Below, in pieces: positions 5,684 to 62,149 of a stretch of 64,000 nucleotides of DNA. Made by a program: the position numbers and the translations under genes. The stretch lies in the NCBI RefSeq assembly GCF_023074835.1, contig NZ_JALLGW010000002.1:310001-374000 (forward strand). The letters run 5' to 3'. Source of the DNA: Halomarina salina (lineage in GTDB: Archaea > Halobacteriota > Halobacteria > Halobacteriales > Haloarculaceae). Within the stretch, counting starts at the first letter, position 1, and the number at the start of each line of letters is the position of its first letter. The notes under the pieces were generated by a model. The model did no database searches and was not told the DNA's origin. It was given only the letters and a program-made list of their open reading frames with translations.

Positions 5684-5857
5684 GACCGTCCGGAACTTCA
5701 CCATACAAGGTATGCATTGTGGCCGTTCCGGGGACAGTACCCGAACGAGCACAGACAGCGTTGGTGAACAGTCCACAAGTCGGGCCAAACCGTTGGCGGC
5801 GGGACTTCGCCCACAGGACGCATCGCGTCGCTCCTCGTCGTTGTTCGCAGTAGAAGT

Positions 5858-5983
5858 AGCGGGAGGTAGATTCGAACCTCGGTCGCTCGCGACGCTCGCT
5901 CCCTGCTTCCAATCTACTCCGGGCGATTTCGACGGCACACGGCTCACGACTCGCTCCGCTCGTCGTTCACGTTGTGTGCCGTC
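5858..5983 (-). repeat. tRNA-linked hairpin element with copy of the initiator tRNA 3' end
   Basis: Downstream of the initiator tRNA (minus strand) are two hairpins. The first has perfect 10-bp arms at 5974-5983 and 5931-5940. The second has arms at 5907-5917 and 5866-5876 (one mismatch) around a 30-nt core (5877-5906). Its far arm continues to 5858 as a copy of the last 19 nt of the tRNA with one difference. The core differs at only 2 of 30 positions from one found behind tRNA-Arg (61862-61891), although the arms differ and match each local tRNA. Confidence 0.85.
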
Positions 5984-5990
5984 AGAACAT

Positions 5991-6064
5991 AGCGGGAGGT
6001 AGATTTGAACTACCGATCTCCGGGTTATGAGCCCGGCGGAATCTCCTGGCTATCCCATCCCGCT
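5991..6064 (-). tRNA. Initiator tRNA-Met (CAT)
   Basis: The 74-nt minus-strand sequence folds as a cloverleaf. Its acceptor stem starts AGCGGGA and ends TCCCGCT, so the first pair is A-T, as in archaeal initiators. The anticodon loop is CTCATAA, giving CAT. Three G-C pairs (GGG/CCC) stack on the anticodon loop, which is the initiator hallmark. The T-loop reads TTCAAAT. No CCA is encoded. A 3'-end copy lies downstream. Confidence 0.95.
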
Positions 6065-58347: not shown

Positions 58348-58464
58348 GCGTTCGGTTGTGTAATCCGTACGATAAGGGTTCTGCCGGGCGGCGCGGGACC
58401 GTCGCACGAACGGCAGCGGTGTCGCGGACTCGCGAGTAGGCGGTGTACTGTGTAGTGAAAGGCG

Positions 58465-58768
58465 GACGGGCGGGGTTGCCCGGTCGTTCCGATACGGGGA
58501 ATCCTGCGCACCGTCTCCACCCCGCGACCCTTCGAGCGACGGATGTTCGCGGATTCGCTGCTCGCTTCCGCGCCTGGCGAACTGTCCACGACTAACCGGG
58601 TCGAGACGTCCCTGCAGACGTCACGACCCGGACCGCCGCCCCCGAAGGACGAGGCTTCTACGTTGGCTTGCAGGGCCCGCACCGGTCGGTCCGGACGCAC
58701 CCGTGTTTCGGCTCCCGCTGAAGACCATATCGCGGGAAGGGGCAGGGCCTAACTGCCCGACCTAGTCC
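58465..58768 (-). ncRNA. ffs: SRP 7S RNA
   Basis: On the minus strand the helix 8 signature is complete: CCAGG, then CGC-GGAA-GCG, then GCAGC (near 58545-58575), the site that binds SRP54. At the 5' end are two small hairpins, GGGCAG/CTGCCC (helix 3) and CCCGC/GCGGG (helix 4), and GGTCG/CGACC closes the 5' domain. A TATA-like box at 58791-58799 lies about 27 nt upstream. The ends are estimated. Total length near 300 nt is right for archaea. Confidence 0.85.
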
Positions 58769-58790
58769 ATCATCTGGGTAGTCCACTTGC

Positions 58791-61510: not shown

Positions 61511-61585
61511 GGGCGCTTAGCTCAGCCTGGACAGAGTGACTGGCTTCGGACCAGTTTGTCGGGGGTTCGAATCCCTCAGCGCCCG
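61511..61585 (+). tRNA. tRNA-Arg (TCG)
   Basis: The 75-nt sequence folds as a cloverleaf: acceptor GGGCGCT/AGCGCCC, anticodon stem ACTGG/CCAGT with loop CTTCGGA (anticodon TCG, reading CGA), T-loop TTCGAAT and discriminator G. No CCA is encoded. Four further T-arm plus acceptor 3' pieces follow within 400 nt. Confidence 0.95.
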
Positions 61586-62022
61586 TTCTGCGTGTCGCGA
61601 ACGAACGTGAGCGACCGCAAACGCACCGTCGAGGGATTCGAAGCAGAGAGCGAACGCAGTGAGCGACCGTGGTTCGAATCCCTCAGCGCCCGTTTTCCCA
61701 CGAACGACGTGAGCAGTGAAAACGGTACCTGAGCGGTTCGAATAGCGAGGACGCGCGGAGCCAAGCGAGCACGTCCGAGTGGAGTTCGAATCCCTCAGCG
61801 CCCGTTCTGCGTGTCGCGAACGAACGTGAGCGACCGCAAACGCACCGTCGAGGGATTCGAAGCAGGGAGCGAGCATCGCGAGCGACCGTGGTTCGAATCC
61901 CGCAGCGCCCGTTTTCCTGCGAACTACGTGAGCAGTGGAAACGGTACCTTTGGATTCGAATCAGACGAGACGCACGCAGCGAAGCGAGTACGTCTCGGCG
62001 TAGTTCGAATCCAAAGGTACCG
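61586..62022 (+). repeat. A-B-A-B array of hairpin elements carrying tRNA-Arg 3' ends
   Basis: Two units alternate. A (from about 61577 and 61794, 107 nt) has the same first 74 nt in both copies and holds a hairpin with GAGGGATTCGAA/TTCGAATCCCTC arms (61631-61642 with 61673-61684, perfect). B (from about 61684 and 61901) has a CGTTTTC/GAAAACG-type hairpin and a CGAGACG/CGTCTCG inner stem. Copies of the tRNA's last about 20 nt end each unit. The last B has 19-bp perfect arms (61942-61960 with 62004-62022). Confidence 0.88.
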
Positions 62023-62149
62023 TTCGTCCTGCTGCGAATCGGACGAACCGTGATGGAAAGCCGGCTCTGGTCCCTCGTCACTTAGGGGTTCGTCCCGCTT
62101 CTGGGGTGTCCATCTCCGATACTCGACCGACACGGTTCGGATGGAAAGG

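Follow-up and report, generated by a model that had tools for sequence, protein, structure and literature searches.

The window analysed here, a 64,000-nt stretch of the Halomarina salina genome, contains hairpins behind an initiator tRNA-Met gene and behind a tRNA-Arg gene. The earlier note on this DNA claimed that these hairpins share a core, but take their arms from the tRNA that they follow. This raises the question of how an element can be common to different tRNAs at its centre and particular to each of them at its edges. The initiator tRNA (iMet) locus comprises the following features:

5990–6064, minus strand: initiator tRNA-Met (CAT) gene (ARAGORN; Rfam RF00005, 60.5 bits)
5990–6010, minus strand: D0, the iMet template GTTCAAATCTACCTCCCGCTA, tRNA positions 53–73, from the T-loop to the discriminator
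5919–5989, minus strand: spacer hairpin hp1, with a perfect 10-bp stem
5907–5918, minus strand: left arm I, inverted copy of the 3' half of the T-arm (10/12 match)
5878–5906, minus strand: palindromic core, 29 nt
5857–5877, minus strand: right arm D1, direct copy of iMet positions 53–73 (20/21 to 5990–6010)
5816–5856, minus strand: probable remnant of a second-unit spacer hairpin (by eye)

The core follows the pattern GG-[GA]-GC ... GC-[GA]-CC, with tandem G.A/A.G, and only 2 of its 29 positions differ from those of the third tRNA-Arg(tcg) core (61862–61890), so that the near-identity claimed for the two is borne out. The accompanying claim, that the arms are copied from iMet, is accurate for the right arm, which carries the full tRNA end; the left arm corresponds to the T-loop and inner T-stem only. 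By eye, 5816–5856 closely resembles the sequence that follows D1 at a locus of the same genus (L087). Both sides of the hp1 stem differ in sequence among related species. D is present at 17 of 28 iMet loci of relatives, and reads CTACC or CCACC to match the local tRNA, with few exceptions.

The tRNA-Arg(tcg) locus carries a longer array:

61511–61585, plus strand: tRNA-Arg (TCG) gene (ARAGORN), with D0 at 61565–61585
61586–61692, plus strand: unit 1, with hp1 61586–61630, I 61631–61642 (12/12), core 61643–61671 and D1 61672–61692 (21/21)
61693–61804, plus strand: unit 2, with hp1 61693–61730, I 61731–61742 (10/12), core 61743–61783 and D2 61784–61804 (21/21)
61805–61911, plus strand: unit 3, with hp1 61805–61849, I 61850–61861, core 61862–61890 and D3 61891–61911 (20/21)
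61912–62033, plus strand: unit 4, with arms 61931–61960 and 62004–62033

Unit 3 is a tandem duplicate of unit 1 at a distance of 219 bp. The arms of unit 4 are mutually complementary over 30 nt (87%), and their outer parts have lost the match to tRNA-Arg; such pairing, kept without the outer tRNA match, fits complementarity at the DNA level. The window also holds an archaeal SRP RNA gene on the minus strand (58460–58772; Rfam RF01857, 192 bits).

The same layout was found behind other tRNA genes of this genome, namely hp1, I (an inverted T-arm copy), a palindromic core, and D (tRNA positions 53–73). Within 400 nt downstream, D matches at 16/21 or better at 25 of the 43 distinct tRNA loci, at 19/21 or better at 18 and perfectly at 10, and no D was found upstream of the tRNA genes (0/43). 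Dinucleotide-shuffled flanks gave a mean of 0.05 D matches per genome, and with the D of another isotype as the query, matches of at least 19/21 arose in 0.06% of comparisons. The unit of tRNA-Arg(gcg) lies 14 kb from its gene, pushed away by an integrase-bearing island. By eye, the other tRNA loci have no clear unit, and several of the unit-free loci have an apparent coding region or rRNA close downstream. A separate, non-tRNA repeat family was also noticed in this genome (L076, L077, L078 and L079, G000:C1 near 1326621, 588125, 1417442 and 715534), in which several copies of CCGCGAGCGAACGCAGTGAGCGAGCGGG or close variants are followed by GGGAATCCTTTT and CAGCTTTT.

For a class-wide search I used the pattern GATTYGAANNAGRGA N6-36 CCGNGGTTCRAATC, which combines the core motif with the T-loop part common to most tRNAs and is independent of tRNA identity. 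It matched at least 120 stretches in 84,980 species genomes, and the 80 matches listed are all haloarchaeal by title, save one titled only Euryarchaeota. Among the 82 matches listed, one of which comes from a viral contig, 78 directly follow a same-strand tRNA, at a distance of 33–415 nt, and 49 carry a perfect 21-nt copy of the adjoining tRNA end; 27 tRNA identities are represented among these 78. Three of the remaining four are at the edge of their locus, and the fourth is behind a 3.1-kb insertion at tRNA-Val. This is not the scatter irrespective of tRNAs of REP/BIME-type repeats, nor were core and arms seen together far from tRNAs, which the earlier note had named as grounds for regarding the tRNA link as chance. 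In 116 haloarchaeal genomes, the pattern is present in 82, spanning 36 of 46 genera, and the reversed pattern is present in none. Beyond the class Halobacteria, the genomes examined from the same phylum had no D at iMet, two apparent matches proving to be second tRNA genes. Many tRNAs, and some haloarchaeal species, have no unit. A published account of these arrays was not found in the literature searched, which is weak evidence, subscription journals being poorly covered. Haloferax prahovense (L146) has a pair of tRNA-Phe genes no more than about 2 kb apart, each of which has a repeat unit of its own.

Agreement with the local tRNA was then mapped by position in 130 units, chosen by a D of at least 16/21, a choice that somewhat raises the absolute percentages but leaves the contrast with other tRNAs unaffected. 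D agrees with its own tRNA at 85–98% at positions 57 and 62–73 (null 22–66%), a result that also answers the concern that arms might not match the adjacent tRNA at other sites. Agreement is 57% against a null of 49% at position 74, stays near background beyond it, and shows no excess upstream of position 53. The boundaries of the duplication are therefore sharp and uniform, with the junction between 53 and 57 and the end at 73. I agrees with its tRNA at positions 57 (96%), 62 (88%), 63 (66%) and 64 (59%); at 65–73 its agreement is equal or close to background. Only D carries the whole tRNA end (53–73), and I is the T-loop and inner T-stem, about 54–64. D thus copies the tRNA through its last base, even though its acceptor part (65–73) is unpaired with I. 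Cores are common to different tRNAs and arms are local to each, across the genome and the class, as had been proposed from the window.

The core itself is better described as a structure than as a sequence. Across 96 distinct cores of type I, retention of the tandem G.A and A.G is 96–98%, and the pair next to the tandem GA is always paired. The second pair on is paired in 98% (CG 48, TA 28, GC 14), compared to 57% at that position when halves of different cores are combined. These paired changes are covariation. The core, which the earlier note had called conserved, is indeed shared between loci, but not quite as one fixed element: its structure is conserved and its sequence varies. A kink-turn was considered and rejected by inspection, as there is no three-base bulge beside the tandem GA. 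No Rfam family was above cut-off over the units of the window.

Arrays with more than one D reveal a polarity. Where at least two D copies of 16/21 or better are present, the tRNA-proximal one is the better match in 35 arrays and the worse in 3, with 21 ties (p 7e-8; 48:3 with a looser cut), although these counts are not independent events, the sequences being related. Perfect D copies make up 76% of the proximal ones and 34% of the distal ones. This polarity favours addition at the tRNA end as the source of the local arms, and I infer that the arrays grow outward from it; the D nearest the tRNA could, alternatively, simply be corrected more often. In 15 Haloferax species, the tRNA-Val(tac) arrays combine spacers alpha, beta, gamma and delta with cores a, b, c and d. 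The beta-b unit, found in five of these species, has no further recognised module after it in any of the five, and is preceded by nothing, by alpha-a, by delta-a or by delta-a/alpha-d. In this small sample, the terminal position of beta-b suggests addition at the tRNA end. Tandem duplication also occurs, at 219 bp in the window, as four units at a 111-bp period (G074) and as two identical units (L136). About 1.3 kb behind a tRNA-Leu(tag) (L068), a decayed second unit lies about 1.2 kb from the first, as if an insertion had entered inside the array.

Modules are also exchanged. Spacer alpha (39 nt) is present in 12 of 391 genomes, from five genera; every occurrence is in a tRNA-Val(tac) array, and the adjoining D copies have the local tRNA variant, GAATCC, GACTCC, GATTCC or CCGGGCCCA. 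When spacers resemble each other between genera, 42% of the pairs have the same anticodon (background 6%); for similar cores the figure is 8%. The two modules reassort separately: alpha is found with a, b-like or d, and beta with a, b or c. Simple insertion of intact units does not account for this. In addition, a near-identical alpha-a unit is shared by two species with tRNAs distinguished by a single base of the T-loop, and the D copies have the local base in each. Some conversion or exchange at D is therefore needed too; together with the separate reassortment, these D copies show that sequence is also exchanged or converted at D and I. Correction templated by the hairpin is suggested, too, by the I arm and by the extended palindrome at 61931–62033. 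At tRNA-Lys(ttt) and tRNA-Lys(ctt) (L024, L025), the spacer hairpin is the same and the cores differ.

The explanation towards which I lean, and hold to be somewhat probable, is that these are tRNA-anchored palindromic repeat arrays at the DNA level, which gain new units at the 3' end of the tRNA. Each addition would duplicate tRNA bases 53–73, and the older tRNA end would be displaced outward and become D. The tRNA end would stay exact because the tRNA must work, and distal D copies would decay. I would be kept complementary to the neighbouring D by hairpin-templated (quasi-palindrome) correction, and units and modules would be duplicated, lost and swapped between species at the same tRNA. 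Candidate catalysts are a trans-acting tyrosine recombinase, or slippage of replication together with template switching. The insertion event and the mechanism of correction are inferred; no insertion was caught as an empty/filled pair of strains. No cellular function would be needed for such an array, which may be self-maintaining and nearly neutral.

A narrower version of this explanation, which seems possible but rather unlikely, is that a dedicated site-specific recombinase moves the units as minimal non-autonomous cassettes. By analogy with the insertion of attC into attI, the folded I-core-D would be the recombination site and the T-loop of the tRNA the receptor. The sharp, uniform boundaries of the duplication (53–57 junction, end at 73), the growth polarity, the hairpin conserved through paired changes in a variable sequence (98% against 57% when swapped) and the enrichment of spacers at one tRNA identity across genera all point in this direction. 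However, no enzyme was identified, the units have no gene, and among 2.9 million viral contigs a single one has the pattern, as does no phage record. The integrase island of this genome at tRNA-Arg(gcg) moreover uses a different duplication. This 14-kb island (L262, G000:C1:435000-450000), with a Phage_integrase gene, is flanked by a 45-nt duplication that starts in the anticodon loop and reaches the tRNA end, compared to one of 21 nt, starting in the T-loop, for the units; there are ten Phage_integrase matches in the genome. The widest form of the idea, a previously unknown dedicated recombination system of haloarchaea, for which most tRNA 3' ends are receptors of tiny hairpin cassettes and whose outward-growing arrays record past tRNA 3' ends, is taken as a whole an equally tentative proposal.

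It is less likely still that the hairpins act in RNA, as a 3' trailer of the tRNA precursor with a role in termination, processing or turnover, and that selection keeps their pairing. Such a role would agree with the location of the units, on the tRNA strand and directly behind the gene, with their good RNA folding (z -4.0 and -8.4), and with the T-rich stretches that often follow the tRNA and D. The comparable E. coli repeat RtT is moreover filed as an RNA family, with a covariation-supported helix framing its tandem GA (PMC8250186). Against this, the spacer stems and I/D arms contain 48 G.T plus T.G mismatches and 58 A.C plus C.A, whereas the acceptor and T stems of the tRNAs at the same loci contain 86 and 13, respectively. 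Pairing kept in RNA should favour G.U, and the units show no such excess; from these mismatch counts, their complementarity looks to be maintained at the DNA level, via arm-to-arm correction or a DNA hairpin. D also tracks the acceptor part of the tRNA, which is unpaired with I, and the unit is absent at many tRNAs and in some species.

A reading of the copies as attachment sites left behind by integrated viruses or plasmids, or as decoys protecting the tRNA, is very improbable: tRNA 3' ends are frequent integration sites, and duplicated tRNA ends border integrated elements (PMC3119063, PMC9897764), but remnants of diverse elements would not have hp1-I-core-D in common, the units lie beside, yet distinct from, true islands at tRNA-Arg(gcg) and tRNA-Val (L155), viral contigs and phage records contain almost no instance of the pattern, and both islands (n = 2) entered at the tRNA itself despite the array, which disfavours a decoy role. 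A viral or plasmid origin of the units was also considered and set aside, on one viral contig match, no phage match and one 22-nt plasmid match. The insertion at L155, in Haloterrigena salina, measures 3.1 kb and lies between tRNA-Val(cac) and its repeat unit; by eye, its open reading frame 498–908 resembles part of an integrase.

If the preferred reading, growth of the arrays at tRNA 3' ends, is correct, a whole archaeal class carries tRNA-templated DNA arrays growing from many tRNA genes. The process would be testable in haloarchaea, with dozens of independent loci per genome and the genetics of Haloferax, and natural single-base tags in the tRNA ends reveal the source of each copy. The arrays would also bear on the evolution of tRNA 3' ends, since the functional end can be replaced by whatever inserts at the T-loop.

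Several known systems resemble these arrays in part. The attachment-site duplications of tyrosine integrases, for example of the SNJ2 type, are likewise direct duplications of the 3' part of a tRNA that end sharply at the tRNA end. Unlike these, the units are tandem, occur at many tRNAs, and include an inverted copy and a palindromic core; with listed spacers of 24–105 nt and cores mostly of 27–94 nt, they are too short for genes, and there is no room for an integrase or cargo between the copies. In integrons, attC cassettes enter at attI, arrays grow outward, and the hairpin structure is conserved while its sequence varies. Outward growth would be a shared trait by analogy, and a conserved hairpin of variable sequence was found in the haloarchaeal units; as far as the analogy goes, they differ in having no identified integrase, no genes, and arms that copy the tRNA. 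Methanopyrus kandleri, another archaeon, has palindromes about 10 bp behind about half of its tRNA genes, but with a fixed CGTTA N9 TAACG motif and no reported tRNA-end copy (PMC5217627).

The closest relative in architecture is the E. coli 178-bp repeat at tyrT/tyrV (RtT, RF00391; rttR/tpr), for which PMC8144298 lists Egan and Landy (1978). Downstream of tyrV in E. coli K-12, a 19-nt piece of the tRNA-Tyr end is present in three copies with a 178-bp period. Ahead of each copy stand GGGGAAGGAT, which is an inverted T-stem, and a palindromic core that contains a GAGCG..AGCGAG / tandem-GA motif. The Rfam RtT family has four units at the tyrT/tyrV locus, their outer stem formed by the inverted copy and the tRNA end. 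The haloarchaeal units have the same tandem arrangement behind a tRNA, the direct copy of the tRNA 3' end at the unit end, the inverted T-stem copy closing the hairpin, and the palindromic core with tandem GA (96–98% of type I cores). A family with a related layout had thus been named, contrary to the earlier note, which knew of none, although the units do not match its model. In covariance searches, the iMet unit matched no family at E<=10, RF00391 matched neither the Arg units nor any of 13 loci, and nothing was over cut-off in 59 haloarchaeal genomes; three weak RF00391 matches in haloarchaea had no tRNA nearby and were discarded. With the architecture of RtT but no match to its model, the haloarchaeal repeat is a related variant and not a member of the RtT family. 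The two also differ in that RtT was seen here at one E. coli tRNA locus, with a copy that includes the encoded CCA, while the haloarchaeal units occur at many tRNAs of many genera, with their own arms at each. If the preferred reading holds, an E. coli curiosity of one locus, known since 1978, would be one case of a general process.
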